A stretch of 33,001 nt of DNA from an uncultured Burkholderiales bacterium (lineage in GTDB: Bacteria; Pseudomonadota; Gammaproteobacteria; Burkholderiales; Burkholderiaceae_C): NCBI GenBank assembly GCA_937873395.1, contig CALMYH010000121.1, forward strand, positions 1-33,001. Reading direction: 5' to 3'. The translations under genes were made by a program, and so were the position numbers. Positions 20,186-33,001 of this stretch are shown here, piece by piece. Positions within the stretch are counted from its first letter, which is position 1. The number at the start of each line of letters is the position of its first letter. The notes under the pieces are model-generated. The model was given only the letters and a program-made list of their open reading frames with translations. It was not told the DNA's origin and did no database searches.

Positions 20186-20231
20186 ACCCGCCGGCCCCGC
20201 CGGCCCACCGACCAGACAGGCCCAGTCACCC

Positions 20232-21035
20232 ATGAGGGTACGCGTTCTCGGCTGTTCCGGCGCCATTGCCAGTGGCTGCCGGACCACCTCTTTTCTGCTG
20301 GACGACAACGTCCTGATCGACGCCGGCACCGGCGTGGGCGACCTCACGCTCGACGAGATGGCGCGCATCGACCACGTGCTGCTGACGCATTCGCACCTGG
20401 ACCATGTGGCCAGCCTGCCGCTGATGATCGACGCGGTGGCGGCCCGCCGCCTGGCCGCCGGCGCGCCGCCGCTGCAGGTGCATGCCCTGCCGGGCACCAT
20501 CGCCGCGCTGCGCACCCACATCTTCAACGACCTGATCTGGCCCGACTTCGCCGCCATCCCCAGCGTCGACACGCCGCTGGTGCGCTTTGTCAGCTTCAGC
20601 GTCGGTGAGCAGGTGCGGGTGGGGGGCAAGGCCATCGAGGTGCTGCCGGCGGTGCACACCGTGCCGGCGGTCGGTTTTGCGGTCGACTCGCCCTCGGGCC
20701 ACTGGGTCTTCAGCGGCGACACCCACCGCAACCCCGCCTTCTGGGACCGCGTCAACCACATGGCGGTGGCCATGCTCATCATCGAGACCGCCTTCAGCGA
20801 CCGCGAGAAAGCCCTGGCCCAGCGCAGCCTGCACCTGGCGCCCAGCCTGCTGGCCGAAGAGCTCGACCAGATCGCTCGCGACCGGCGCTTCCCGGTCTAC
20901 ATCACCCACACCAAACCGGCCGAAACCGCGCTCATCATGAACGAGATCGAGCGCTTCGACGCCACCCCCAACCGCGAGAACGACGTCCGCCACGACATCC
21001 GCTGGCTCAGCGCGGGCATGGAGTTCGAGCTGTAA
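20232..21035 (+). CDS. Class II 3',5'-cyclic-nucleotide phosphodiesterase (metallo-beta-lactamase fold)
   Basis: 267 residues. Seen: VRVLGCSGAIASGCRTTSF at the start, the zinc motif THSHLDHV near 55, a VHTVPAVGF histidine, GDTHRN and THTKPAE. This combination is that of PF02112-type phosphodiesterases (yeast PDE1, Vibrio CpdP) rather than generic beta-lactamase-fold hydrolases. It hydrolyses cAMP and possibly cGMP to the nucleoside monophosphate. No convincing signal peptide is seen, so a cytosolic site is likely. It begins 46 bases after the cyclase stop on the same strand, so synthesis and breakdown of the same messenger are encoded together. Confidence 0.88.
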   Translation: MRVRVLGCSGAIASGCRTTSFLLDDNVLIDAGTGVGDLTLDEMARIDHVLLTHSHLDHVASLPLMIDAVAARRLAAGAPPLQVHALPGTIAALRTHIFNDLIWPDFAAIPSVDTPLVRFVSFSVGEQVRVGGKAIEVLPAVHTVPAVGFAVDSPSGHWVFSGDTHRNPAFWDRVNHMAVAMLIIETAFSDREKALAQRSLHLAPSLLAEELDQIARDRRFPVYITHTKPAETALIMNEIERFDATPNRENDVRHDIRWLSAGMEFEL

Positions 21036-21099
21036 GGCGGCTCCCGGCGCCCGCGTCAGCTTCGGGCGGCAACCACCCTTTCGGTATAGCCCGCGCAGA

Positions 21100-21141
21100 C
21101 GGACATCCAGGCCCCGCCATGCCCGCGAAAGCGGACATCCA
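21100..21141. repeat. Degenerate dispersed repeat in a 237-base gap
   Basis: CGGACATCCA occurs at 21100-21109 and 21132-21141, around a small hairpin CCGC-GAAA-GCGG (21123-21134). CCCACGCATGAG also occurs twice in the following 60 bases. It resembles the 'CCCGCGAAAGCGGG' family of intergenic repeats of betaproteobacteria in decayed form. No gene is visible between 21036 and 21272. Confidence 0.45.
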
Positions 21142-21241
21142 CCAGTGAAATTCCTGCTGCCACGGATTCCCGCCCCACGCATGAGCGGAAACGGCGTTTG
21201 GTGCACCCAGTCTGGCGCCCACGCATGAGTTGCGTTAACAT

Positions 21242-21261
21242 ATTGGTGTTTTAGCACCAAT
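21242..21261. promoter_or_regulatory. Operator palindrome of the RHH/PIN toxin-antitoxin pair
   Basis: ATTGGTG (21242-21248), spacer TTTTAG, CACCAAT (21255-21261). This perfect inverted repeat lies 11 bases before the antitoxin start. Toxin-antitoxin pairs with ribbon-helix-helix antitoxins usually autorepress through such a site. Confidence 0.65.
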
Positions 21262-21272
21262 GTGAGAATGCC

Positions 21273-21512
21273 ATGAGCCGCCTGACCATCACCCTGTCCG
21301 AAGCCCGTTACCGTGCGTTGAAAGAAGCCGCCGCCCAGCGCAGCAAGACCATCGGGCAACTGATTGACGAGAGCCTGGACTTCTACGGCATCAAGTCACG
21401 CGAGCAGGCGCTTGACCTGGTGCGTCAGGCCCGAGTCCGCAGCCAACTGGACGCAAGCCAGGCCATGGCGCTGGCACAGGAAGAAGTCCAGGCTGTTCGC
21501 CGCGCACCGTGA
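21273..21512 (+). CDS. Ribbon-helix-helix (CopG-type) antitoxin
   Basis: 79 residues. The N-terminal 45 residues fit the ribbon-helix-helix fold: a beta strand RLTITLSEA, then helices RYRALKEAAAQRSK and TIGQLIDESLDFYG. The C-terminal part (50-79) is an alanine/glutamine-rich helix expected to wrap the toxin. The stop overlaps the PIN gene start as GTGA, so the two are coupled. A perfect operator palindrome lies just upstream. It neutralises the neighbouring PIN nuclease and probably represses the pair. Confidence 0.82.
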   Translation: MSRLTITLSEARYRALKEAAAQRSKTIGQLIDESLDFYGIKSREQALDLVRQARVRSQLDASQAMALAQEEVQAVRRAP

Positions 21513-21940
21513 GCACCTGCTACATCATTGACACCAACGTCGTCGTCGCAGGTCTGCTCTCTGCCCAGGCCGACTCGCCGGTGGTGCGCATTCTGGACGC
21601 CATGCTGGGCGCAGCATTTCCGTTCGCACTCTCGCCCGACCTGTTGTTCGAATACCGCGCTGTGCTCCTTCGACCGCGTCTGGTCAAGCGGCACGGCCTG
21701 ACCGCCGAGCAAATCGACACCGTGCTGACCGACCTGGCACGCCTGGCGATCGTGCTGAAGCCGCCAGCCAGGGGGTCTTTGACGCCTGCACCTGACCCCG
21801 GTGACCAGTTCTTGTGGGACCTGTTGGCCTTGCGCACCGACCTCATCCTGGTCACAGGCGACCAACGCCTGCTGGAAGAAGCAGCCATGCGGCACCGCGT
21901 CATTGCCCCAACGGTTCTCGCCGAGCGTTTGTGGCATTGA
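21509..21940 (+). CDS. PIN-domain toxin (putative RNase)
   Basis: 143 residues, GTG start in a 4-base overlap with the antitoxin. The four acidic positions of PIN nucleases are visible: Asp8 in IDTNVVV, Glu48 in LLFEYRAVL, an Asp cluster at 96-104 (PDPGDQFLWD), and Asp118 in VTGDQRLL. This layout matches the PIN_3 group ('putative toxin component, PIN family') rather than classical VapC. It probably cleaves RNA using divalent metal. The RNA target cannot be told from sequence. Confidence 0.85.
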   Translation: MSTCYIIDTNVVVAGLLSAQADSPVVRILDAMLGAAFPFALSPDLLFEYRAVLLRPRLVKRHGLTAEQIDTVLTDLARLAIVLKPPARGSLTPAPDPGDQFLWDLLALRTDLILVTGDQRLLEEAAMRHRVIAPTVLAERLWH

Positions 21941-21963
21941 ACGCGGGGCAGGTCCTTGGGCAG

Positions 21964-22039
21964 TGACAAATCCTGTCGCGCCCGCCCCGCCTGACAATTT
22001 TTGTCAGCCCTCAGTTCACCGTTCCGACACGTTTTGTCA
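21964..22039. promoter_or_regulatory. Three 15-bp dyads upstream of pilA (candidate PilR enhancer sites)
   Basis: Dyads at 21964-21978 (TGACAAATCCTGTCG), 21992-22006 (TGACAATTTTTGTCA, perfect) and 22025-22039 (CGACACGTTTTGTCA). They share the pattern YGACAM-N3-YTGTCR. The PilR activator of Pseudomonas recognises C/G-TGTC elements, and these lie 53-128 bases upstream of a sigma-54 promoter, the usual enhancer distance. Confidence 0.7.
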
Positions 22040-22091
22040 CCCGGGACCCATAAAGCGTGAAATAGAGCGCAAAAACCCGGCCATTTCGGGT

Positions 22092-22107
22092 TGGCACGCG
22101 ATCTGCT
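22092..22107 (+). promoter_or_regulatory. Sigma-54 (RpoN) promoter of pilA
   Basis: TGGCAC (22092-22097), five bases, CTGCT (22103-22107), one mismatch from TGGCAC-N5-TTGCW. It leaves a leader of about 50 bases before the pilA start. pilA genes of many proteobacteria are RpoN/PilSR-dependent. Confidence 0.78.
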
Positions 22108-22169
22108 AAAGAGAACGCGTCTGCCCACACCCCCCAAGGGATTCTGTTTTCAACCAAGGAGAGAGTTTC

Positions 22170-22670
22170 ATGAAGCGTTCCATGCAAAAAGGTTTCACCC
22201 TGATCGAACTGATGATCGTGGTGGCCATCATTGGTATCCTGGCTGCCGTGGCCCTGCCGGCTTATCAGGATTACACCGTTCGTGCCCGTGTGTCGGAAGG
22301 CATGGTGGCCGCATCGGCTGCGAAGGTCAATGTGGCCGACATCTTGGCCACTGGCCGCAACTCGGCTGCGGGCTACAGCGCTGGTTTCACCGCTCCTGCG
22401 GCTTCCCAGAACTTGGCATCGATCGCCATCGCAGCGGCCACCGGTCAGATCAGGGTCACGACCACTGCTCGTGCTGGCAACGGATCTTTGGTGCTCGTAC
22501 CTTACACTGCAGCTGGCGCTCTCCCTGATGCGACCGCTGCATTCACCCCTCCTGCAGATGCTGTCCAGTGGCAGTGTCACTCGGCGACAGTTGCAAGTGT
22601 CATTTCGCCTGCCCCCACGGCTCCGGCTCCTGACTTGCCGGCACGGTTTGCCCCGTCTGAGTGCCGCTGA
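22170..22670 (+). CDS. pilA: Type IV pilin major subunit
   Basis: 166 residues. The leader MKRSMQKG is cleaved before Phe by the prepilin peptidase, giving an N-terminal [20 protein letters not shown] helix with Glu5, the canonical type IVa pilin start. The globular domain is Ala/Thr-rich with few charges. It ends with a two-cysteine loop (Cys in QWQCHS and Cys in SECR) that would form the D-region disulfide. A strong AAGGAG site precedes the ATG. Control by sigma-54 and upstream dyads is indicated, and a hairpin terminator follows. The neighbour is a TfpX/TfpZ-type accessory gene, a pairing known for certain Pseudomonas pilin alleles. Confidence 0.95.
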
Positions 22671-22685
22671 CCTTCGTGTTGGCCA

Positions 22686-22713
22686 GAAAAAGGGCGCTAC
22701 GGCGCTCTTTTTC
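22686..22713 (+). terminator. Rho-independent terminator of pilA
   Basis: GAAAAAGGGCGC (22686-22697), loop TACG, GCGCTCTTTTTC (22702-22713): a 12-pair stem with one G-T pair and a T-rich distal arm. It separates the highly expressed pilin from the accessory gene. Confidence 0.88.
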
Positions 22714-22736
22714 GTTTCTGTTGTAGTCTCGCTGAC

Positions 22737-23516
22737 ATGAGTTTCGCCTTTCGACTTCGATCGGCCAGTCGCGCCGCTCTCAAGCACCTGTTGATCTGCC
22801 TGCTGGTGGCCGCGGCCGTGGCCGCCCTCGTGTTCGGTCTCTGGTACCCGAGTCCCTATGGAGAAATGTCCGGTGGCCAGGGCCTGTTCTGGCTCATCGT
22901 GGTGGTGGATGTGGTCTGTGGCCCGCTGCTCACCCTGGTCATCTACAACCCGCGCAAGCCGCGCGCCGAGCTCGTTCGCGACATCGGGCTGGTGGTGCTG
23001 ATCCAGCTGGCAGCGCTGGGCTACGGCCTGCACAGCCTGCTGCAAGCGCGCCCGGTCTGGCTGGCGTACGAAAAAGACCTGTTCCGCGTTGTCAGCCTGC
23101 CCGACCTGATGCCGGGCACTCTGGAGCAGGCACCGCCGGACCTCCAAGCCCTGAGCCTCCTCGGCCCGAAACCGCTGGGTGTTCGTCTGGCCCAAGGTAC
23201 CGACGCCGACTTCTTGCAGAACGTCCAACAGTCCCTCGCCGGCAACCACCCCGCCTTCCGCCCCGACCGTTGGGTGCCCTACGCCGAGCAGGCTGGCCAG
23301 GCCGCCGCCGCCGCCCGGCCGTTGGCCGAACTGCAAAGCCGCTACCCGGATCAGTCCGCCCTCATCGACCAGGCCTTGCGCCGCAGCGGCCGTGCTGCCG
23401 ACGCCTTGGGCTTTCTTCCCCTGGCCACCGAGCACCCGACCGACTGGGTGGTGCTGCTGGACCGCAGCACGGGTGAGCCGGTGGGCTACCTTCCGCTGGA
23501 CGGCTGGGCCGACTGA
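22737..23516 (+). CDS. TfpX/TfpZ-family type IV pilin accessory protein
   Basis: 259 residues, inner membrane. TM segments lie at about 15-36, 48-68 and 80-100, with the family motif LWYPSPYGEMSGGQGLF and VVDVVCGPLLTLVIYNPRKP between them. A periplasmic or cytoplasmic C-terminal domain of about 155 residues ends in VVLLDRSTGEPVGYLPLDGW. In Pseudomonas aeruginosa, TfpX, TfpY and TfpZ are encoded next to particular pilA alleles and are needed for efficient assembly of that pilin. It starts 24 bases after the pilA terminator, so expression probably depends on terminator read-through or its own promoter. Confidence 0.85.
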   Translation: MSFAFRLRSASRAALKHLLICLLVAAAVAALVFGLWYPSPYGEMSGGQGLFWLIVVVDVVCGPLLTLVIYNPRKPRAELVRDIGLVVLIQLAALGYGLHSLLQARPVWLAYEKDLFRVVSLPDLMPGTLEQAPPDLQALSLLGPKPLGVRLAQGTDADFLQNVQQSLAGNHPAFRPDRWVPYAEQAGQAAAAARPLAELQSRYPDQSALIDQALRRSGRAADALGFLPLATEHPTDWVVLLDRSTGEPVGYLPLDGWAD

Positions 23517-23525
23517 GCCGCGAGT

Positions 23526-23555
23526 GTCCGTGTGTGCTCCCGAACGAACACGGAC
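23526..23555. other. Perfect inverted repeat downstream of the accessory gene
   Basis: GTCCGTGT (23526-23533) and ACACGGAC (23548-23555) with a 14-base loop. No T run follows, so it is at best a factor-dependent terminator or RNA-stabilising hairpin. Between 23517 and 23591 nothing else is visible. Confidence 0.5.
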
Positions 23556-23591
23556 CAGGCCTGTCCCCATTTCAGCTTCGGGGTTCTGTTC

Positions 23592-23744
23592 TCAGTCCGC
23601 TTCCAGCATGGCGCTGGCGGCCTGGGCCAACGGGGCCAGTCACTGGTTCACGACGGTGGCCACCGTCTCGGCGCCGATATGGCCCAGGTAGTTGTGCACG
23701 AGGATGTTCCGAAACCCGCTGATTTCGCGCCAGGGTTTGCTCAT
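23592..23744 (-). pseudogene. HepT-like (DUF86) toxin remnant
   Basis: The frame from ATG 23744 reads MSKPWREISGFRNILVHNY and stops at 23640-23642 (TGA) after 34 codons. Reading on in the same frame gives LAPLAQAASAMLEAD, then TGA at 23592, which is the expected C-terminus of a DUF86/HepT protein. The RxxxxHxY RNase motif (RNILVHNY) survives. About 70 residues that normally precede PWR are missing, and a nonsense codon splits the end, so the gene is broken twice. It overlaps the MNT remnant by ATGA, the usual coupling of MNT-HepT pairs. Confidence 0.72.
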
Positions 23745-23932
23745 GGCTCAACCACCTTACGCAGCACCTGATCGCGAATGTGCCGGTTCAGTTCGTGCTC
23801 GGGCACCAGCTCCACCGGGCGCTGCAGCCATTGGGACAGCTGGTCGGCCAGGGGCATGCGCTGGGCGAACAGGTCGTAGCCGGGGGGAAAGTCCACCAGA
23901 AAGTCGATGTCGCTGTCGGCCGTTCTTCGCAC
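23741..23932 (-). pseudogene. MNT-type nucleotidyltransferase antitoxin remnant
   Basis: From GTG 23932 the frame reads RRTADSDIDFLVDFPPGYDLF and continues for 63 codons with the C-terminal half of an MNT-domain protein. The second acidic pair (DSDIDF) is present, but the GSxxRG nucleotide-binding motif and N-terminal strand are gone. The frame is open upstream only as far as the TGA of the sugar transferase gene (23960-23962), nine codons away and in the same frame. Together with the HepT remnant it marks a decayed toxin-antitoxin module abutting the polysaccharide operon. Confidence 0.68.
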
Positions 23933-23959
23933 CGGGTCACCCGACCTCCCACCACTACC

Positions 23960-25414
23960 TCAGTACGCGTTCTTCCCCGTCAGCGCCCCCAGCGTGCGCA
24001 CCAGGATGCTCAGGTCCAGCCAGAGCGACCAGTTGTTGATGTACTCGATGTCGGCCTCGATGCGCTGCTGCATCTGCTCGACGTCGCGGGTTTCGCCACG
24101 CAGGCCGCGCACCTGGGCAAGGCCGGTGATGCCGGGCTTGATGTTGTGGCGTGCCAGGTAGGCGTCGATGCGCTTGGAATACTCTTCGTCGTGCTGCACG
24201 GCGTGGGGCCGCGGGCCGACCAGCGACATCTCGCCCGTCAGCACGTTGAACACCTGCGGCAGCTCGTCCAGGCTGGTCTTGCGCAGAAAGGCGCCGACGC
24301 GGGTGATGCGCGGGTCGTCGCGCGTGGCCTGCTGCACCACGCCGCCCTCGGGCTGGTGCACATGCATGCTGCGGAACTTCCAGATGTGGAACACCTTGCC
24401 GCTCCAGCCCTTGCGCGCCTGGCGGAAGAACACCGGCCCCGGGCTGTCGAGCCTGATGGCCAGGGCAATGAGCAGCAGCACGGGCGCGACCAGCAGCAGG
24501 ATCAGCGTGGCCAGCACCCGGTCCTCCACCGCCTTGAGCAGCAGGCGGGTGCCTGTCAGCGGCGTCTCCGACAGGGTGAGCACCGGCAGGCCGGCCATCT
24601 CGCGCACACTGTGGTTGACCAGCAGCAGCGAGAAGATGTCGGGTACCCAGTGCACCGCCACGTGCCGGTCCAGCAGCCGGAAGTACATCTCCTCGATCAG
24701 GTCGGAGTCGCCCAGCGGGATGGCGAAGTAGACCGTGCGCACGTCGTGCCGCTCGATGATGTCGAGCATGTCCTCCAGGTTGCCGATGACCTCGGCTTCC
24801 TTGAGCGCGGCGAAGTCTGAACTGTGATAAAGCGAGGCGGCGGGCTTGCCGCTTTGGCGGGCCTGGCTGCCGGGCAGCTCCAGGCAGCCGACCACGTTCT
24901 GGTTCAGCCAGGGGTTGCCCGAAATCTTGGCTTGCAGGTAGCGCGCGAGCTTGCCGGTGCCGATGATGAGCACGTTCTCGGCCGGCACCGCGCGGCGCAT
25001 GACACGGGTCTGGATCTCGCGGCTGAAATAGTGCAGCAGCACCTGCACGGCGTATCCCCCGACGTACAGCTGGCCCAGCAGCAGGCGGGAGTAGACGTCG
25101 GTCTGCTTGGTGGCAAAGCCGACGACCAGCAGAAAGGCAAAGGCCAGCGACCAGGCCTTGAGCAGGGTGAGCGCCTTGCGCGCGAAGCTGCTGTTGCTGC
25201 GATAGACGCCGAACTGGTCGTACGCGAACAGCATGCCGATGGCCAGCAACAGCAGCAGCACGGAATAGGCGGCCGGCAGGACGCCGTACTGGCGGTGGAC
25301 CAGTGCCAGGGCCAGACCGAGCACCACCACCAGATCCAATACGGTCTGCACCGCGGTGGAAATGCTGCCGCGGCGCTTGAGGATGGAACGGGGGGTTCGC
25401 TTGGGCAGCACCAT
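23960..25414 (-). CDS. WcaJ-type undecaprenyl-phosphate sugar-1-phosphate transferase
   Basis: 484 residues, inner membrane. It has four N-terminal TM helices (about 20-130), a CoA-binding/Rossmann-like domain (VLIIGTGKLARYLQ near 170) and a further TM near 300. The catalytic bacterial sugar transferase domain shows WKFRSMHVH, DDPRITRVGAFLRKTSLDELPQ, GEMSLVGPRPH and the C-terminal IKPGITGLAQVRGLRGET. Such enzymes start exopolysaccharide repeat units by moving a hexose-1-phosphate, commonly glucose, from the UDP-sugar to undecaprenyl phosphate. Start ATG 25414 is preferred since the frame upstream (to 25615) has no family sequence. No ribosome site is visible, and a TATACT lies just upstream, so a leaderless or short-leader transcript is possible. 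Last intact gene of the operon. Confidence 0.92.
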   Translation of the reverse strand: MVLPKRTPRSILKRRGSISTAVQTVLDLVVVLGLALALVHRQYGVLPAAYSVLLLLLAIGMLFAYDQFGVYRSNSSFARKALTLLKAWSLAFAFLLVVGFATKQTDVYSRLLLGQLYVGGYAVQVLLHYFSREIQTRVMRRAVPAENVLIIGTGKLARYLQAKISGNPWLNQNVVGCLELPGSQARQSGKPAASLYHSSDFAALKEAEVIGNLEDMLDIIERHDVRTVYFAIPLGDSDLIEEMYFRLLDRHVAVHWVPDIFSLLLVNHSVREMAGLPVLTLSETPLTGTRLLLKAVEDRVLATLILLLVAPVLLLIALAIRLDSPGPVFFRQARKGWSGKVFHIWKFRSMHVHQPEGGVVQQATRDDPRITRVGAFLRKTSLDELPQVFNVLTGEMSLVGPRPHAVQHDEEYSKRIDAYLARHNIKPGITGLAQVRGLRGETRDVEQMQQRIEADIEYINNWSLWLDLSILVRTLGALTGKNAY

Positions 25415-25536
25415 GGCGCTGGAGTATAGGTACCTCAGGCCTTGCCTGGGCTGACAGGCCGGACGGGTCCGGCGAAAGCGGCCGCCGCCGTGTGGATGTT
25501 CACGCCCAAGGCCGCGGCGCTGGACTGGCCGCAGGC

Positions 25537-26640
25537 TCAGGCCCGGGCGTCGCCCCAGGCAATCGGTGTGTGCTCGTCGCCGACGTAGAGGGTGTTGCCG
25601 TGCCGGTCCACACAATACTGGGGCGACATGATGCGCTCGCTGGCCACCTGGGCGGTGCCGATGCGGGTGTACTCGAACAGCACGCTGCGCTCGACGGTGC
25701 TGCCGGGCCGCAGGTGGCAGCCATGGCCGATCCAGGTCGGGCCGACCACGCGGGCGCCGGCCTCGATGCGGGTGTTCGAGCCGATGTAGACCGGACCCTC
25801 GATCTGAACCGAGTCCCAGTCGACCGAGGTGTTGAGCCCGACCCAGACACCCGGGCGCACCTGCTTGCCCGGCATTTCCATCTGGGCGATCTCGCCGCGC
25901 AGCACACGCTGCAGCACCAGCCAGTAGTCGGACAGGCGCCCGATGTCGATCCAGTTGAAGAAGCGCTTCTGGGCAAAGAAGGGCAGACCCTGCTCGACCA
26001 GCATCGGGAACAGCTCGCTGCCGATGTCGAAGGGCTTGCCCGGCGGCACCAGGCCCAGCACCGCCGGCTCGAAGATGTAGATGCCGGTGCTGGCGGCGGT
26101 GGACAGGGCGTCTTCGGGGCGGGGCTTTTCCTGGAAGGAGCGCACCCGGCCCTGCTCGTCGGCCACCACCACGCCGTAGTTCTGCACCTGGTCGCGCGGC
26201 ACGTCCAGCGTGACCACGCTGGCCAGCGCCTGCTTGTGGCGGTGCTCGTCCAGCGCGGCGCCGATGTCCAGGTCGACGATGGCGTCACCACACATCACCA
26301 GCGTGGTCTCGTCGAAGAAACCGCCAAAGTCCTGGATCTTGCGCAGGCCGCCGGCCGAGCCCATGGCGCGCGGCACGATGTCGCCGTGCTCTCGCGCGCC
26401 TTCGAAGGAGTAGCCGATCTCGACCCCCCAGCGCCGGCCGTCGCCGAAGTAGTTCTCGATCTTGTAGTGGTTGAAGGCCACGTTGATCATGATCTCGCGG
26501 ATGCCGTGGCGCGCCAGATGCTCGATGATGTACTCGAGCACCGGCTTGCCCAGGATCGGGACCATGGGTTTGGGGGTCTTCTGCGTCAGCGGACGCACGC
26601 GGGTTCCCTGGCCCGCTGCCAGGATCATGCCTTTGGCCAT
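25537..26640 (-). CDS. Sugar-phosphate nucleotidyltransferase (mannose-1-P guanylyltransferase-like)
   Basis: 367 residues, cytosolic. The N-terminal nucleotidyltransferase domain begins GMILAAGQGTRVRPLTQKTPKPM, the signature loop and lysine. VMCGDAIVDLD binds metal and EKP contacts the sugar. From about residue 265 a left-handed beta-helix of hexapeptide repeats follows (VWVGLNTSVDWDSVQIEGPVYIG region). It joins a nucleoside triphosphate to a hexose-1-phosphate, supplying activated sugar for polysaccharide. The GDP-mannose class is favoured by the two-domain layout but glucose-1-phosphate enzymes look alike. It sits 122 bases before the WcaJ-like gene and 45 bases after the SGNH-like gene, all on one strand. 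Confidence 0.88.
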   Translation of the reverse strand: MAKGMILAAGQGTRVRPLTQKTPKPMVPILGKPVLEYIIEHLARHGIREIMINVAFNHYKIENYFGDGRRWGVEIGYSFEGAREHGDIVPRAMGSAGGLRKIQDFGGFFDETTLVMCGDAIVDLDIGAALDEHRHKQALASVVTLDVPRDQVQNYGVVVADEQGRVRSFQEKPRPEDALSTAASTGIYIFEPAVLGLVPPGKPFDIGSELFPMLVEQGLPFFAQKRFFNWIDIGRLSDYWLVLQRVLRGEIAQMEMPGKQVRPGVWVGLNTSVDWDSVQIEGPVYIGSNTRIEAGARVVGPTWIGHGCHLRPGSTVERSVLFEYTRIGTAQVASERIMSPQYCVDRHGNTLYVGDEHTPIAWGDARA

Positions 26641-26685
26641 GGTGTCAAGTTGCTTGGTAAGTGATGAACAGGCTGGATTGTGGGC

Positions 26686-27630
26686 TCAGGACGCCGATGC
26701 CGATACCCCTGTTTGTGGCAAGGAGCGAACGACCTCCCAGACGGTCTTCTGCATCAGCCGGGCGGCTTCGGGCGAAGGCGCCACCGCTGGCGTGCCGTCG
26801 GCCTTGAGCAGTTCGTGCGGCAGGCCGACCGGGCTGCGGTGGTAGAGCACGGCGTAATGGGTCAGGGCCACCAGGTAGTTGCCCAGGTCGTTCAGGTGAA
26901 TCTGGTCCTGGGTGCCGTCCGGGTTGAGCGCAAACAGGTCTTCGCGGCGCTGCAAGCCGGGCACACCCTGGCTCCCCTCGATGGCCCGCACCAGCCGGGC
27001 CAGCACCTGGCCCGCCGGAATCACATGCACCGGCCCGCCGGTATCGCCATGGGCCAGGCCCTTGGCCAGGATTTCGCCCTGCCAGTAGCGCCCCAAGTCC
27101 TTGTCCAGGCGCTCCAGCCAGCCTTCCTTGTCATCCAGCTGGTGCCAGGTCTCGTACAGGTAGACGCGGATGTTGGGCCGGTGGGTGCGGGCTTCGCGCG
27201 CCCACCGGCGGAGGTATTTGGGGCTGTCGAACCACTTGATGGCACCCCTGATCTCCGCCATTTCGGTCAGCACCAGCACATCGAAGTTGCCGCTGCGAAC
27301 GGCCTGAAGCGCATCCTGATAGCGCGCATGGGCATTCTCATGTTCAAAACCGTTGATCGGCACCCCAGGCTCCCAGTGGGATTGGAGGGTCGCGCCCCAA
27401 CCCAGTTGTGACCGGTGCTCATGCCCCTCGCCGGCGAGCTGTTCCAGCATCATCGGCATGTCCCGGTTGACCAGACTGTGCCCGATGTGAAAGACCCACA
27501 GTGGCTTGTCGGGTGGGGTCAGTGGCGCGGCGTACAGCTGCTGGAGTTCAGCGGGTGGCAGCGACTTCTGGAAGCCGCAGGCACTGAGGGCCAGCAGCAG
27601 GAACCATTGGGCGGCGCGGTGCAAGGGCAT
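26686..27630 (-). CDS. SGNH-hydrolase-like lipoprotein of the polysaccharide operon
   Basis: 314 residues. It has a short signal peptide with lipobox LSAC (Cys18), so it is probably an outer- or inner-membrane lipoprotein facing the periplasm. After the linker, LWVFHIGHSLVNRDMP gives a GxS-type nucleophile block. VLVLTEMAEI follows, and near the C-terminus DQIHLNDLGNYLVALTHY supplies the Asp-x-x-His-like pair of SGNH hydrolases. The activity could be esterase or acetyl transfer on the polysaccharide, but this is inference from fold motifs. It is the promoter-proximal gene of the minus-strand operon and diverges from the VPELDG protein. A broken gene at 29912-31358 encodes a related N-terminus. 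Confidence 0.7.
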   Translation of the reverse strand: MPLHRAAQWFLLLALSACGFQKSLPPAELQQLYAAPLTPPDKPLWVFHIGHSLVNRDMPMMLEQLAGEGHEHRSQLGWGATLQSHWEPGVPINGFEHENAHARYQDALQAVRSGNFDVLVLTEMAEIRGAIKWFDSPKYLRRWAREARTHRPNIRVYLYETWHQLDDKEGWLERLDKDLGRYWQGEILAKGLAHGDTGGPVHVIPAGQVLARLVRAIEGSQGVPGLQRREDLFALNPDGTQDQIHLNDLGNYLVALTHYAVLYHRSPVGLPHELLKADGTPAVAPSPEAARLMQKTVWEVVRSLPQTGVSASAS

Positions 27631-27758
27631 GTTCGGTGCGTCTTTCAGCGGGCTTGAATCAGCACATTATCCTCGTGGGAGTCTGCTGGCAAGACGCTGG
27701 TGGAGGGAGGTCGTTGCCACATGCTTGGCATTTTTCACGTTGCAGCCCCGGCGCAGAC

Positions 27759-27787
27759 TTGACGCACTTTGACTAAGAATGTAATCT
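27759..27787 (+). promoter_or_regulatory. Promoter of the VPELDG secreted protein gene
   Basis: TTGACG (27759-27764), exactly 17 bases, TAATCT (27782-27787): five and four of six consensus matches. It lies 50 bases before the ATG. The divergent region 27631-27837 otherwise shows no gene. Confidence 0.65.
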
Positions 27788-27837
27788 TTCAAAGGATGCT
27801 GGCGTAGTGCCAAATTCTGTACCTTGCTAGGCGATAT

Positions 27838-28146
27838 ATGAAACAAATTTCTGTGACGTTTCTTGCGTTCGCCCTGCTTTTTTCAGGAAGTGCGCTGGCC
27901 CAGAGCGGCGCTCAGGTGCAGGTGAGCGCCTCACAGGCTGGTCAGCAAGTGCGTAGTCAACTTGCGCAGCATTTGCAGCAAGTGCGCAGTCAAGTTGCAC
28001 AGCGACCTCAGCAACGTCCGTCGTCAGTTCGGCCGTCCCGGCCAGTAAGAGCTGTCCCCGAGTTGGATGGAAGCGTTGGCTTTCTGGCGCTTGGGCTGGC
28101 CTTTGCGGTGGGCGCACTAGTTCGCGAGAGGCGGCGTTCTCACTGA
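27838..28146 (+). CDS. Small secreted protein with VPELDG (VPEID-type) C-terminal sorting signal
   Basis: 102 residues. It has a signal peptide of about 21-22 residues (ending SALA-Q) and a glutamine/serine/arginine-rich mature part of about 50 residues without cysteine. The C-terminal tripartite signal is VPELDG at 73-78, a hydrophobic helix (79-94), then RERRR. That is the layout of exosortase substrates, and the motif matches the VPEID-CTERM class. Residues about 37-58 hold two copies of an 11-residue unit (QQVRSQ-type), encoded by a 33-base near-duplication at 27943 and 27976. The exosortase/protease gene starts 76 bases downstream, so it is the obvious partner. The function of the mature protein is unknown. 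Confidence 0.85.
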   Translation: MKQISVTFLAFALLFSGSALAQSGAQVQVSASQAGQQVRSQLAQHLQQVRSQVAQRPQQRPSSVRPSRPVRAVPELDGSVGFLALGLAFAVGALVRERRRSH

Positions 28147-28222
28147 CATCGGGGGGGCGGCGGGTCGGCTTGCTGGCCTATAGTGGGCGCGGCAGGTGCG
28201 TTATTAAGCAGCTGCGTAGTCA

Positions 28223-29836
28223 GTGCGTCAAGTGACTGCGTTCCAAATGCACCACCTTCGGTTTTGGGTGTCGGTGGCAGTCATCGTCGTCCAAGCGGTC
28301 GGGTTGTCCACGGCCTTTGATTTAGGCTCCCTCTTCGGGCGTGCTCAGGCCGCGGGTTTTGCGTGGCTGGGCCATGCGGGCTTGGCAGCAAAGGTGCTTA
28401 TCGCATGGTTTGCCGCGTTGATGGTGGCTGCAGGACCGCGCTGGTCGTACTGGGTCCGAACTCTTCACGACGCTCCCTTCGCCCACCGGCATCTTCTGCC
28501 ACTTGTCTTTCAAGTGGGCAGTTTCACCCTGTTATTTCTTCTCACGTACCAGATGTCAGTGGAGTCAACCCACTGGAACCTGGATTCTGCCCTTCCATAC
28601 CTGGTTTGGATCGGGTTGCTGGGGTTGGTCGGGCTGTTTTGGCTGACCTCTCTAGCTCCGACATCATTTTGGATCCGGTTCGCACGTGAGGAGACTCATG
28701 CCATCGCATTTGCCTGTGCTGTCGGCGTAATCGCATTCCTCTTCGCCTTGGTCACTCAGGATCTCTGGGATCCTCTAGGCGATGTCACTTTCAGCGCCGT
28801 GGCTTCGCTTCTGCGCTGGTTTTACACGGACGTCTTGGTTGAACCAGAGCACCGAATCATCGGTATTGATGAATTTCTTGTTGAAATAGCAGCTGCTTGC
28901 TCAGGGTATGAAGGCATCGGCCTTGTTCTGATTCTCTCAGGGTTTTATCTTTTTATATTTCACAAGGAATTTCTCTTCCCCCAGTCTTTGCTGTTGTTGC
29001 CCATTGGCGTTGTCACTATCTGGTCGTTCAATGTTGCTCGGATAGCGATACTTGTCGCCATTGGGGCCGAGATTTCACCAGAGTTGGCTGTGGATGGCTT
29101 TCACAGCCTTGCAGGTTGGATAGCTTTCGTCTTGGTCACCACATTTATGTTGCTGTTGGCACACAAAAGCCTTTTCTTCAGTCGCACTTCTTCGGCGTTT
29201 GGCAGGCATCCCATCAGCTTCAGAATGGCACTGCTGATCCCGCTGGTGGTATTGCTCGCGACCACGCTTATCACATCGGCCTTGACCATTACGGTGGACT
29301 GGTGGTATCCATTGAGGGTCGTTCTCACGGGTGGCGCACTGATTCTTCTTTGGCAACATTATGGCAGCATTCGATTTCGCATCAGCTGGTTTGCCGTCGG
29401 AGTTGGAACGCTCATTTTTTTGCTGTGGGTTATCATGGTTCCAACTGATCCCGCAAAAGACGAAGCTGTTGCTCAGCAATTGAGTGATATACCCTTCAGT
29501 CTCTTGGTTGCCTGGTTGATGTTCAGAGTCGTGGGCGCGGTCGTCACTGTATCCCTTGCCGAAGAGCTGGCCTTCAGGGGGTATCTTTTCGAGGTGCTTG
29601 CCAACAAACGAGGTGACGTGAGCTGGCCGCGCTTTCCTTGGTTTGCATTGATTCTCTCCTCGGTCCTTTTTGGCTTGCTTCACAGTGCGTGGCTCGCTGG
29701 CTTTCTGGCCGGGGTCGCTTACGGTCTGGTCCGGTGCTACCGCAACAACGTGGGCGATGCTTTTGTCGCCCACGCAACCACCAACGGACTGCTCTCCATT
29801 TATGTTCTAATCACTGCTGAATGGTCTACTTGGTAA
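28223..29836 (+). CDS. Exosortase fused to a CPBP/CAAX-type membrane protease (exosortase E type)
   Basis: 537 residues, inner membrane, with about a dozen TM helices. The exosortase half (about 1-320) has the catalytic triad: Cys226 in AAACSGYEG, Arg273 in FNVARI and His294 in DGFHSLAGW. The second half (about 335-537) is a CPBP intramembrane metalloprotease: Glu447-Glu448-x3-Arg452 (AEELAFRG), His487 in GLLHSAW, and His517/Asn521 near AHATTNG. I know this fusion as exosortase E/protease, paired with VPEID-CTERM proteins. It would cut the substrate at VPELDG and transfer or release it. The protease may trim or degrade the leftover tail (inference). The frame opens at GTG 28223. ATG 28247 is an alternative start. 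It is visibly less GC-rich than the core genes. Confidence 0.92.
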   Translation: MRQVTAFQMHHLRFWVSVAVIVVQAVGLSTAFDLGSLFGRAQAAGFAWLGHAGLAAKVLIAWFAALMVAAGPRWSYWVRTLHDAPFAHRHLLPLVFQVGSFTLLFLLTYQMSVESTHWNLDSALPYLVWIGLLGLVGLFWLTSLAPTSFWIRFAREETHAIAFACAVGVIAFLFALVTQDLWDPLGDVTFSAVASLLRWFYTDVLVEPEHRIIGIDEFLVEIAAACSGYEGIGLVLILSGFYLFIFHKEFLFPQSLLLLPIGVVTIWSFNVARIAILVAIGAEISPELAVDGFHSLAGWIAFVLVTTFMLLLAHKSLFFSRTSSAFGRHPISFRMALLIPLVVLLATTLITSALTITVDWWYPLRVVLTGGALILLWQHYGSIRFRISWFAVGVGTLIFLLWVIMVPTDPAKDEAVAQQLSDIPFSLLVAWLMFRVVGAVVTVSLAEELAFRGYLFEVLANKRGDVSWPRFPWFALILSSVLFGLLHSAWLAGFLAGVAYGLVRCYRNNVGDAFVAHATTNGLLSIYVLITAEWSTW

Positions 29837-30058
29837 TCTATCGCCCCAGAGGAATCCAAGGGCGGAATTATTTGCCAAGTCGCGGTTTCAAGCTCCAAGT
29901 ACAATGAAGTGATGATGGTAGATTTCAAAGTGAGCATGCAGTTCCTTAATCTGCTATTGGGTATGGTGATCACAATGAATGCAGCGCTTTCCCTGCCTTG
30001 TGACTCCGAAATAGAGACGCAGTGTATTGACCCAGCGGTTTCTGCACAGGTCAGGCTG

Positions 30059-30871
30059 CTATAGCATAAGCCTCAGCGGGGGTCTCATGGCCAGCGCCTG
30101 ATGAGGGCGCCGGTGGTTGTAGAAGCTGATCCAATCAGCGATCACGCGACTGGCGTGCTGCGGGGTTTCGAACCGGTGGCGATGCACGCATTGGTCCTTG
30201 AGCGTTCGGATCACGCGCTCGACCATGCCGTTTTGCTCCGGGCTGTAGGGGGTGATGAATTCCTGCTGCAATCCATAGCTCTTGGCCAGGGCCGTGTAGC
30301 TGCGGCTGGTGAACACCAGACCGTTGTCAGACCTCAGCAAGAACGGGTGCTTGACCCTGCCCAGGCAACCGTAGCGGGCGATCAGCGCTTGTTCCAAGGC
30401 CGCTTCAGCGGTCTTGGAACGCCCACTGCGGCTCAGGTGCCAACCCAGCAGTTCGCGGCTGTAGCAGTCGATCACCAGGGCCAGTGAGGCCCAACCATCA
30501 CGCCCAGCCCACACACGGCACAGATCGGTGGCCCAGCGCTCATCTGGCGCCAGGGCCACTGAGGGCAAGGCCTGAATGCGCAGCCTGAAGCCCACCGGGC
30601 GCTTGCGCACCTGCCAGCCCTTGAGCTGGAAAACGCGCTGCACGGTGTTCTTGTTGAAGCCGAGCAGGTACGCCACGGTGCGGTAACCGAACGACGGGTT
30701 CTCTTCAATCATCGCCTTGATGGGCTTGACGAAGTGATCCTGAACCTTCGGCGGCGCCTTGGTGCCGCGGTAGTACACCGTGCGCCGAGGCATGTCGAAC
30801 CACTGGCACAGCTTGACCAGGCTGACCTTGAACCCGTCTTGCGCCAATCCCTGCTGAAGGCTGAGGATCAT
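30059..30871 (-). CDS. IS3-family transposase OrfB (DDE integrase domain)
   Basis: 270 residues. The N-terminal helical region holds FDMPRRTVYYR and NPSFGYRTVAYLL (HTH_21-like), followed by an rve-type catalytic core. The core shows Asp in RWATDLCRV, Asp in LLRSDNGLVF and Glu in QNGMVERVIRTLK, the DDE triad with the conserved K/R seven residues on. The C-terminal YNHRRPHQALAMRPP is typical. It cuts and joins the element ends. The ATG overlaps the orfA stop as ATGA. I see no clear A6G slippery run at the junction, so coupling rather than a frameshifted fusion may supply OrfB. Confidence 0.95.
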   Translation of the reverse strand: MILSLQQGLAQDGFKVSLVKLCQWFDMPRRTVYYRGTKAPPKVQDHFVKPIKAMIEENPSFGYRTVAYLLGFNKNTVQRVFQLKGWQVRKRPVGFRLRIQALPSVALAPDERWATDLCRVWAGRDGWASLALVIDCYSRELLGWHLSRSGRSKTAEAALEQALIARYGCLGRVKHPFLLRSDNGLVFTSRSYTALAKSYGLQQEFITPYSPEQNGMVERVIRTLKDQCVHRHRFETPQHASRVIADWISFYNHRRPHQALAMRPPLRLML

Positions 30872-31209
30872 TTCTCGTCCTCGTTGCCCAGCAGGGAGGC
30901 CAGCTCTTTTCTGGCACGCAGCTCCAGCATGGCTTCGCCATAGGCCTCCTGCAGTTCGCGCAGTTGCTTCTCGTACTGCTCTTTGACTTCCAGGGGCTTG
31001 GTGCGCAGGGCGTTCTCCATGCCACGCTTGCCTTCATCAACCCACTGCTCCACCTCGGACGGGTTGAGATCGAAGGTCCGGCTGGCCTCCGAGATCGTGG
31101 TCTTGCCCTGGATGATGTCCAGGACCAGGGCCGTTTTACGCTTGGCCGTCCAGCGCTTGATGTCGTCTTCCATCAGGGTGCTCATCGTCGTTTCGTTCAA
31201 CGTTAACAC
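30868..31209 (-). CDS. IS3-family OrfA (DNA-binding subunit)
   Basis: 113 residues. A helix-turn-helix (about 15-60: KRKTALVLDIIQGKTTISEASRTFDLNPSEVEQW) is followed by a coiled-coil/leucine-rich stretch (VKEQYEKQLRELQEAYGEAMLELRARKEL) used for multimerisation. OrfA proteins bind the terminal repeats and regulate or join with OrfB. It starts 16 bases inside the right terminal repeat, and in-frame ATG codons downstream (MSTLMEDD) are alternative starts. Confidence 0.9.
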   Translation of the reverse strand: MLTLNETTMSTLMEDDIKRWTAKRKTALVLDIIQGKTTISEASRTFDLNPSEVEQWVDEGKRGMENALRTKPLEVKEQYEKQLRELQEAYGEAMLELRARKELASLLGNEDEK

Positions 31210-31379
31210 CTGAGCAGGAATTCACTGGGTCAATACAGCAGCGCATGAACGTGTTCTGGTCGGGTCACAATTTCACCGATCCGCCCGTCCCGGAATTCGT
31301 CGCAGAGATCGCCAGTGGCTTCGGCACCCCAATGCAATGGAACCGGCATAGCGTTTAAGGCGCGATTACCCTAGCAAGG

Positions 31380-33001
31380 CTACCGCTGAGCGGAATGGGT
31401 GCTGATTGCGGGAAGACCGAACCCTGCACGCACATGATTGATGACCGCTGCGGTAGTGAATCTCTGGTCCCAAGCGCCCCACCTGTTGTTTATCGCTCCC
31501 CGAAGAGAGGGTTGACTTGGCACACCATTGACGAACCACTCAATGGCCTGCTGTGGATTAGCTGGCGACACGCCGAGCGTTTGCATGTACGTAACTAGGT
31601 CTCGATTCGGATCAGGGTAGGCTATTCGTGTGTTGCTGCCGCGCGAAGGCACATATGCAGCGTAATTTGAAGTATAACCTGAAAACCATCCTGACTGCGC
31701 CGAACTGGAATAGAAGCGGTTGTTGGCTTCGTAGGTGAAGTCGTTGCTTTGCGCCTGAATCAGCGCACCGCCTGCCGGGCGTTGGAAGTCGTTGCGGCGA
31801 ATCAGGTACGGGCCGGTGATCGTGCCGGCGTGCTCTACTAGTGGAACAATGTTTGCGTTATAGAAAATGTTGTCTTGAACAGTGACATTGGTCACGGGCA
31901 AGGTGTTGCTCCCTGTCGTGTTTTCGTAATAGGTCAGAGACTGGCCTGCAAGAAAAATGTTCTGCTCGATAACCGCGTTCTTAATGTCATAGAGTACGTA
32001 GACGTCGCCTGGGTTATGAAGCGCCAGGTTGTAGCGCAGGTTCAGGAACGTACCTCTGTTGGCAGGGGTGCCTCCGGAGTACGAGCCGGTGCCTATATCA
32101 AAGCTTGCCAACCTGCTATTCAACACAAGATTTGCCTCGACGGTGCCAAGTCCACGTTGCCGGAAACCAACGCCAGGCGAGTTCGCGCTGATGTTTCGCC
32201 GCGAATCAATATCGCCAACGTCGTATTGAAAGTAGTTGTTATGCTCGACGCCACCCCCTCCGACATATCCGGCGGGATGCCACATGACGTTGTCCCAAAA
32301 GGTCATGTTTCCACGTCCGATATTCCCATTGGTAAACGTCCGGATACGGTGAAAACCAGACCGTGAAAAATCGAGCCCATCAGACACATCAAACGTAAAA
32401 TCAGCGGTCACGCTCGTATCTGGACCATTGAACAAAACCCCCTCAAACCTCGTTGTAAATCCCCGAATGGCTGCTGAACTGTTGGATGGAAAAGAAGAAA
32501 CATAGTGTGCAAGCAATTGATTGCCAGCCGTGGTTTGTGCATTCGGAAACAGATAGCCCACCTGCGGCCTCGGGCTGGTCGGGTCACCGTAAGCCGCCAC
32601 AATTATCCTGGCCGACGCGCTCGCCCCTGCCTTGTTCGTGAACAGGTTCTCTGCCCAAGTGTCGCCCCTGCGCAGCAGCATGACGTCCGCAGAACCGTTC
32701 CTGATCTGGGCCCATGCTGCTTGCAGCGTCCTGTACGGAGCGATCTGACCGACAGGGTCAAGCGGGCGGCCGCCGAGCTCTGGTGAATCGGGGCGATAGA
32801 CTTGCCCGGTGGAATTGTTGCCTTCGCTGGAAGACACGTAGACCACGCGGGAACCCGAGTAAGTAGGGCTATTGATGAGCGCATTCAGATCCGTCCAGCC
32901 ATCAGTGGTGCCCACACTGTCGCCAGAATTCATGGGCTGATCCGGCGCAGGTGCAGGTGCAGGTGCAGGTGCAGGTGCAGGTGCAGGTGCAGGTGCAGGT
33001 G
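31380..33001 (-). CDS. Secreted right-handed beta-helix protein with Pro-Ala linker (5' end outside window)
   Basis: At least 540 residues. The open frame runs off the window edge, so the true start and any signal peptide are not visible. The visible N-terminal part is a (Pro-Ala)n linker of at least 9 units, then DQPMNSGDS. From about 517 residues before the end the sequence is rich in Asn, Gly, Ser, Thr and aromatic residues, with repeated short strands such as NAVIEQNIFLAGQ and NVTVQDNIFYNAN. Those are turns of a parallel beta-helix like pectate lyases and polysaccharide-processing proteins. A role in cutting or binding the locus polysaccharide is inference. Internal ATG 32933 follows the linker and is unlikely to be the real start. 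The stop lies 21 bases from the convergent pseudogene end. Confidence 0.78.
   Translation of the reverse strand, partial: PAPAPAPAPAPAPAPAPAPDQPMNSGDSVGTTDGWTDLNALINSPTYSGSRVVYVSSSEGNNSTGQVYRPDSPELGGRPLDPVGQIAPYRTLQAAWAQIRNGSADVMLLRRGDTWAENLFTNKAGASASARIIVAAYGDPTSPRPQVGYLFPNAQTTAGNQLLAHYVSSFPSNSSAAIRGFTTRFEGVLFNGPDTSVTADFTFDVSDGLDFSRSGFHRIRTFTNGNIGRGNMTFWDNVMWHPAGYVGGGGVEHNNYFQYDVGDIDSRRNISANSPGVGFRQRGLGTVEANLVLNSRLASFDIGTGSYSGGTPANRGTFLNLRYNLALHNPGDVYVLYDIKNAVIEQNIFLAGQSLTYYENTTGSNTLPVTNVTVQDNIFYNANIVPLVEHAGTITGPYLIRRNDFQRPAGGALIQAQSNDFTYEANNRFYSSSAQSGWFSGYTSNYAAYVPSRGSNTRIAYPDPNRDLVTYMQTLGVSPANPQQAIEWFVNGVPSQPSLRGAINNRWGAWDQRFTTAAVINHVRAGFGLPAISTHSAQR
32947..33001 (-). repeat. Hexanucleotide tandem repeat encoding Pro-Ala linker
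   Basis: GCAGGT repeated nine times without error, reaching the window edge, so the full copy number is unknown. On the minus strand each unit encodes one Ala-Pro pair. Slippage changes linker length without shifting the frame. Confidence 0.95.

Follow-up and report, generated by a model that had tools for sequence, protein, structure and literature searches.

We sought to determine what is made by a gene pair in Hydrogenophaga in which a short reading frame, for a 102-residue protein of secreted type, directly precedes the gene for an exosortase E fused to a CPBP protease. The pair lies in the window analysed here, which is the entire contig C121 (33001 bases) of a 3.7 Mb draft genome. A preliminary description of this DNA had proposed a compact enzyme with a single dedicated substrate, tied to a neighbouring exopolysaccharide operon. 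The locus raises the question of whether so small a protein is the enzyme's one partner, and what would remain of it after sorting. We conclude with good confidence that the two genes form a dedicated exosortase E sorting cassette whose substrate is very small. Its parts are as follows.

27838..28146, + strand: substrate micro-protein, 102 residues (50.4 bits against our tail profile in its own genome; the profile includes this tail)
27838..27900, + strand: predicted signal peptide MKQISVTFLAFALLFSGSALA, 21 residues (our own rule-based prediction, not SignalP)
27901..28053, + strand: predicted mature stretch, 51 residues, rich in Gln, Ser, Arg and Pro, without Cys, differing among relatives
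28054..28143, + strand: sorting tail, VPELDG followed by a hydrophobic helix and RERRR (TIGR04161 17.2 bits, cut-off 33)
28223..29836, + strand: exosortase E/CPBP protease fusion (xrtE), 537 residues, GTG start
28898..28900, + strand: codon of Cys226, predicted exosortase nucleophile (partners Arg273 and His294), invariant in 47 of 47 aligned enzymes
29561..29566, + strand: codons of Glu447-Glu448, predicted CPBP catalytic pair (partners His487, His517 and Asn521), invariant in 47 of 47

Both genes proved to be as the preliminary description had drawn them. The 102-residue open reading frame (ORF) has a signal-peptide-like N-terminus and ends in the tail VPELDGSVGFLALGLAFAVGALVRERRRSH, so that motif, helix and a basic cluster at the very C-terminus follow the predicted signal peptide in turn, and it contains no Cys anywhere. 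A gap of 76 bases separates it from the GTG-started ORF of the 537-residue membrane protein, whose start position matches in both relatives aligned.

The enzyme was matched by the exosortase E profile TIGR04162 over positions 19-514 of 516 (219.6 bits, cut-off 150, E 8.6e-65), and it also exceeded the cut-off of the CAAX-protease-related model TIGR03008 (120 bits, cut-off 81.05). Pfam placed PF02517 (Rce1-like, 57 bits) and PF09721 (exosortase, 46.5 bits) on it, and the models for XrtA (26.1 bits, cut-off 208) and MrtJ (26.9 bits, cut-off 75) stayed below their cut-offs. These matches place it clearly in a known family, as an ordinary exosortase E/CPBP fusion; public annotation names such an enzyme xrtE, for example in Rhodobacteraceae bacterium SC52 (CP049031.1). 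It is the single TIGR04162 match in its genome (E <= 0.001) and likewise the single match to an exosortase or archaeosortase domain (E <= 1).

TIGR04162 matches were found in 4 of 60 genomes of the genus (our own included; several of the 60 are incomplete), in our own genome alone among the 399 of a family sample (E <= 1e-30), and in four of the 397 of a phylum sample. The order of genome G205 yielded the enzyme in 1 of 78 genomes, and family f94, taken to be alphaproteobacterial from its likeness to Rhodobacterales plasmid copies, in 33 of 296. Of 72,556 plasmid records 16 gave a match, which in 13 extended over the fusion. From these we compared 47 enzyme loci, namely the 4 from Hydrogenophaga, those of G165, G205 and G212, 31 further loci from f94, and 9 of the 13 fusion-bearing plasmids; the set does not include another four plasmid records from Paracoccus (H11-H14) or the three CAAX-only ones (H18-H20). 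The window enzyme is 58-60% identical to the enzymes of two Hydrogenophaga loci from metagenome-assembled genomes, and ~30-36% identical to the Rhodobacterales and Novosphingobium plasmid copies. Residues C226, R273, H294, E447, E448, H487, H517 and N521 are each invariant in all 47 enzymes, which bears out the exosortase triad and CPBP centre of the preliminary description, and this invariance suggests that the CPBP half is used. The word "compact" did not hold, since at 537 residues the enzyme falls within the 525-661 residues of the 47 enzymes (longest-start lengths), against a profile of 516 positions.

At all 4 Hydrogenophaga loci one VPELDG-tailed ORF lies directly upstream of the enzyme in the same gene order. 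Across the 47 loci, an automatic scan of the fetched flanks (1.5-2 kb in genomes, ~9 kb in plasmids, with phmmer used on the enzyme loci) found a tailed ORF at 43, for 45 ORFs in total. At L030 it lies downstream of the enzyme, past two other genes, and at the plasmid locus L028 a second scan found a tailed frame of ~205 residues adjoining the enzyme. Co-occurrence of the two genes across genomes, which the preliminary description had offered as a check, was followed in 73 genomes, 38 with the enzyme and 35 without it, the latter being 15 Hydrogenophaga (absence at E 0.001) and 20 members of f94 (absence at E 1e-30). A tail profile built from 30 tails, partly from the genomes tested, matched 38/38 positives, all at E <= 1.3e-6, and 0/35 negatives below E 0.001; two negatives gave matches at E <= 0.01 (0.0040 and 0.0074), in frames of 3530 and 297 residues. 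Exactly one strong tail was present in 35 of the 38 positives (extra weak matches at 0.006-0.009 in three positives were left uncounted), the exceptions being G888 with four (small), G1044 with two and G986 with six (large proteins). The claim of one enzyme with one substrate is thus strongly supported, both for its own genome and as the usual state of the genomes tested.

Because the tail profile contains tails from these genomes, we repeated the test with the NCBI model TIGR04161. It matched 30 of the 38 positives at E <= 1.7e-5 and our own genome (G000) at 0.01, and it matched three negatives at 0.03-0.05 and none lower. Tail distances also track enzyme distances (Mantel r 0.72 over 42 pairs, reached by 0 of 2000 permutations), a correlation that shared descent alone could yield. 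At the level of gene content, these searches show that enzyme and tail co-occur and pair one to one in the genomes tested.

Two genomes displayed other arrangements. At L038/L088 (G888) three small VPEI-tailed ORFs stand beside a single exosortase E, with a fourth on another contig, and at least one of the L038 ORFs is without a recognisable signal peptide. In G986 the arrangement is many-to-one, with several large VPEVS-tailed frames (220-539 residues) near exosortase E at L063 and four large VPEVS-tailed frames in the wider window of L059.

The tail of the window substrate scored 17.2 bits against TIGR04161 (E 0.004; 18.7 bits in whole-genome searches), and the cut-off of 33 was reached in none of the four Hydrogenophaga genomes. 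The two profiles that the preliminary description had named gave a divided result, with the fusion well placed and the tail falling short. Since the tail fails the VPEID-CTERM cut-off, we class the pair as a variant of exosortase E/VPEID-CTERM. Among the Hydrogenophaga tails, those of L005 and L007 differ at 7 of 90 bases and at 0 of 30 residues. Between L005 and L006 the tails show 11 base differences and one residue change, whereas only 91 of 172 bases align in the N-terminal parts of this second pair. Silent tail differences combined with unalike N-terminal parts indicate that the tail is constrained as protein and that the mature part is exchangeable, having been replaced between relatives.

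The substrates are small. Excluding L043, a misread frame in which two tandem frames run together, the 44 tailed ORFs have a median length of 73 residues (range 53-102). The stretch from the signal-peptide cut to VPE has a median of 20 residues (quartiles 11-29.5, range 5-51, 44 tails), with cuts placed by a home-made rule and the whole N-terminal part counted for one L038 ORF without a predicted signal peptide. The starts of five publicly annotated coding sequences (69, 64, 71, 57 and 88 residues) agree with the predicted ones. In L021, for example, the stretch is LIPPT, followed by APEIDGG, and in L027 it is KPPTPS, followed by VPEID; the window substrate with its 51-residue stretch is the largest of the set, the other three Hydrogenophaga stretches having 39. 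Exactly two Cys occur in 14 of 45 stretches before VPE, and two or more Trp in 16 of 45 (the L043 misread frame among them). Across these loci the predicted partner of exosortase E is, as the ORF lengths show, usually a micro-protein. This rule may be new; in the literature searched, no title or abstract opening dealt with exosortase E substrates, although Haft et al. 2012 may already state small, paired substrates, and a search for XrtE together with exosortase returned no paper.

We know of no settled account of exosortase chemistry or of why the enzyme is fused to a CAAX-type protease. For the present pair, we infer how the proteins lie in the membrane, where the substrate is cut, in which order the steps run, which acceptor (if any) is used and what the CPBP half does; for the exosortase step and for what becomes of the peptide we draw on the PEP-CTERM/EpsH family (PMC1569441). 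The 102-residue precursor would be exported by Sec, and signal peptidase would remove ~21 residues from its N-terminus. With RERRR towards the cytoplasm, the C-terminal helix would then anchor the remainder in the inner membrane and hold VPELDG at the outer face, where the exosortase half (Cys226/Arg273/His294) would cleave in or beside VPE-LDG and free or transfer a peptide of roughly 51-54 residues. The CPBP half (Glu447/Glu448/His487/His517/Asn521) might carry out a second step, either on the same substrate or on the left-over helix of ~27 residues, whose destruction the preliminary description had raised as a possibility. The product is likely a short peptide, tethered or released. Because the system has two genes, one 102-residue substrate and a full set of identified predicted catalytic residues, the precursor, the peptide and the left-over helix are each traceable.

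An AlphaFold2 model based on an alignment of the window with L017 and L018 was unusable (predicted local distance difference test score 43.2, predicted template modelling score 0.35), and a PDB sequence search with the same alignment gave 0 matches up to E 10. When the weak hydrophobic segment 6 was omitted, this analysis put the Glu pair close to the inner face and the exosortase triad on, or close to, the outer one. We set this topology aside because His487 does not fit it.

Several points weigh against a dedicated cassette with a very small substrate. Its product, cut site and acceptor are predictions, and hydropathy and charge averaged over all 15 hydrophobic segments left the two sides of the membrane unseparated (13.1 vs 11.5 K/R). 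The signal-peptide cuts depend on our own rule, and L038 and L061 have no convincing signal peptide. The tail profile is partly circular, being built in part from the genomes tested. TIGR04161 reached our own genome only at E 0.01 and missed seven positives (G010, G053 and G057 from Hydrogenophaga, and G205, G872, G881 and G986), the motifs in the genomes missed being divergent (VPELD, APEIDGG, VPEVG, APEIN and VPEVS). At L036 (G893) the sole tail gene, also small, is ~2.5 Mb from the enzyme, and no tail was found in the part of L024 that was fetched. The large VPEVS-tailed proteins of G986 and the ~205-residue frame of L028 mean that a small substrate is not obligatory. Residue 444 (codon 29552-29554), three residues before the Glu pair, is Ser only in the window enzyme and Pro in 46/47, so the CPBP half of this particular copy might be altered.

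A broader reading, which we put forward tentatively and think rather less probable than its opposite, is that exosortase E is mainly a peptide-maturing enzyme and not a surface-protein sortase, with its dedicated micro-protein leaving, after the signal-peptidase and exosortase cuts, a peptide of ~5-51 residues that in some clades has a Cys pair or several Trp. This peptide might act as a signal, or other surface material might be assembled on it as on an anchor or primer; in one clade that material may be a large SdrD-like protein whose C-terminus contains Cys. Should small substrates prove to be the pattern, exosortase E would merit study for the short envelope or secreted peptides that it makes, and the picture centred on exopolysaccharide would not be simply transferable to it.

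In one apparent exosortase-E clade (FastTree) a large protein without an obvious signal peptide is encoded near the enzyme and has a Cys-containing C-terminus (e.g. QPFI...DCLC). By motif or homology, 12 of 14 wide windows contained this SdrD-like protein (9 by motif alone), L024 and L063 being the other two, while 0 of 23 control stretches contained the motif, by which alone they were scanned. Examples lie at L022:6265-8286, L023:5161-8058, L027:5181-8150 and L029:6625-8061, with others at L093, L094 and L096-L101. SdrD-B or SdrC/SdrD models matched four of the five scanned (L022, L023, L027 and L101; no match in L029), and at L023 the protein adjoins type I secretion genes. We considered a disulphide tether between a Cys pair in the peptide and the Cys end of the SdrD-like protein, but this idea was weakened by the peptides of L093, L097, L098, L099, L101 and L027, which are without Cys.

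Somewhat less probable still is classical surface-protein sorting, in which, on the model put forward for PEP-CTERM/EpsH, the pair would decorate the surface or an exopolysaccharide with protein, and the sugar-transferase genes around it in the window would form a functional setting. In the window the pair faces a divergently transcribed sugar-phosphotransferase cluster and precedes an IS3-type element, and two genes of this neighbourhood adjoin the pair.

23960..25615, - strand: undecaprenyl-phosphate sugar phosphotransferase, neighbour outside the conserved pair (TIGR03023 482.9 bits, cut-off 410.75)
25537..26640, - strand: sugar nucleotidyltransferase, neighbour outside the conserved pair (PF00483, 5e-51)

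We searched stretches of ~20 kb for exopolysaccharide genes with twelve single-protein queries. This detector works, since it found the window's own sugar transferase, and it is not exhaustive; because the queries are single sequences, some exopolysaccharide genes will escape it. It found an exopolysaccharide gene in 3 of 23 other genome enzyme stretches (2 with a core gene), in 0 of 23 control stretches and in 0 of 3 Hydrogenophaga relatives. On the plasmids 6 of 9 stretches had an exopolysaccharide-type gene after own-query matches were removed, five of these six having a sugar transferase, export, autokinase or flippase gene; however, five of the nine plasmids supplied queries and most query proteins are plasmid-derived, which favours plasmid matches. 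L023, outside these six, has an annotated glycosyltransferase. The contrast between genome and plasmid counts indicates that the link is local or plasmid-linked in this sample, and we reject it as a general rule; the tie to an exopolysaccharide operon claimed in the preliminary description is unsupported as a general property. The surface-sorting reading gains from the plasmid loci, from the excess of genome loci over control stretches, and from the large VPEVS-tailed proteins near the enzyme in G986. It loses from the 3 relatives and the 20 of 23 other genome loci at which these single-sequence queries detected nothing, from a usual substrate of 5-51 residues between the two predicted cuts, which leaves little for display, and from mature parts that are replaced among relatives.

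The pair has a different setting in its relatives: in the Hydrogenophaga genomes G010, G053 and G057 it follows lpdA of a pyruvate dehydrogenase cluster, and it is absent from the 1.5 kb after lpdA in our own genome and in nine enzyme-free Hydrogenophaga. The spot after lpdA (L069, L072, L078) is variable in the genus, with the pair in 3 of 13 genomes and other sequence in 10 of 13, our own included.

Returning to the partner itself, we think it improbable that the micro-protein is an accessory subunit or built-in regulator, that is, a pseudo-substrate that occupies or folds the enzyme while the real substrates lie elsewhere. Such a role would suit a partner that is single and tiny, is usually encoded next to the enzyme, and keeps its tail while its mature part is free to vary, and the SdrD-like protein in the 12 wide windows could be its business end; but the tail has the full tripartite form of a sorting signal (other tail classes were not systematically sought), and since a tail of the same type terminates large proteins in G986, it acts there as a portable C-terminal tag. 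Least probable in our view is that the main cut falls to the CPBP half rather than the exosortase half, as in myxosortase: every CPBP residue is invariant in 47 of 47 enzymes, PMC11980579 describes cleavage of a C-terminal tag by the CPBP-family myxosortase MrtX in M. xanthus and E. coli, and the substrate lies just over the cut-off of the MYXO-CTERM model TIGR03382 (16.2 vs 15.85 bits; E 0.012, judged chance), but in that same paper TraA cleavage by MrtX needs the motif Cys that the window substrate lacks, the enzyme scored 33.4 bits against the 100-bit cut-off of the myxosortase core model, and the exosortase triad is invariant too.

Set among known systems, the dedicated cassette most resembles exosortase E/VPEID-CTERM (TIGR04162/TIGR04161), with the fusion above cut-off, the catalytic residues, and a small tailed ORF immediately upstream in a one-to-one arrangement. 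It differs in its tail, which in Hydrogenophaga reads VPELDG...RE[RK]RR, and in its host, Hydrogenophaga in place of the Rhodobacterales and Novosphingobium that carry the plasmid copies seen. For this VPELDG tail class, the present TIGR04161 cut-off misses likely partners. With PEP-CTERM/EpsH the pair shares the exosortase domain, tripartite tail and signal peptide. In PMC1569441, an epsH homolog is nearly always among exopolysaccharide genes and four EpsH/CAAX-protease fusions are already reported; according to PMC3237569, PEP-CTERM species often have twenty or more substrates. Our pair, by comparison, has one small substrate, and its exopolysaccharide neighbourhood, present in the window and at 6 of 9 plasmid loci, did not prove to be conserved among the loci searched. 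MrtJ/JDVT-CTERM, as presented in PMC11980579, is likewise a two-gene enzyme-substrate cassette with a CPBP glutamic protease, sporadic in beta- and gammaproteobacteria, and myxosortase is described there as a CPBP family able to trim C-terminal tags with cleavage dependent on the motif Cys; unlike both, the window enzyme has an added exosortase half and its substrate is without Cys. PMC3237569 also describes dedicated rhombosortase/GlyGly-CTERM pairs, in which single-target genomes tend to have the target adjacent to the enzyme (a "dedicated system"), as here, although protease family and tag are unrelated.

The promoter that the preliminary description had placed before the 102-residue gene was not recovered: at a threshold of 9 of 12 matches, our scan found no sigma-70-type site in 27630-27838. 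Its single site lies inside the enzyme gene, and shuffled sequences average 1.3 sites. The IS3-type two-ORF element (30022-31241) lies just downstream of the pair and shares 92.3% identity with a segment of Comamonas aquatica plasmid NZ_CP104280.1 that has an IS3 family transposase among its features. When window positions 20000-33001 were compared with plasmids by megablast, one record contained the element and three others gave short matches, and the viral contigs searched contained no relative. A 517-residue ORF on the - strand (31380-32933) had no Pfam or NCBIfam match up to E 1. Further upstream, judged by eye, 21273-21940 looks like a small ribbon-helix-helix/PIN-type gene pair, and 22170-23516 presumably encodes a type IV pilin and, after it, a membrane protein resembling pilin-accessory proteins.

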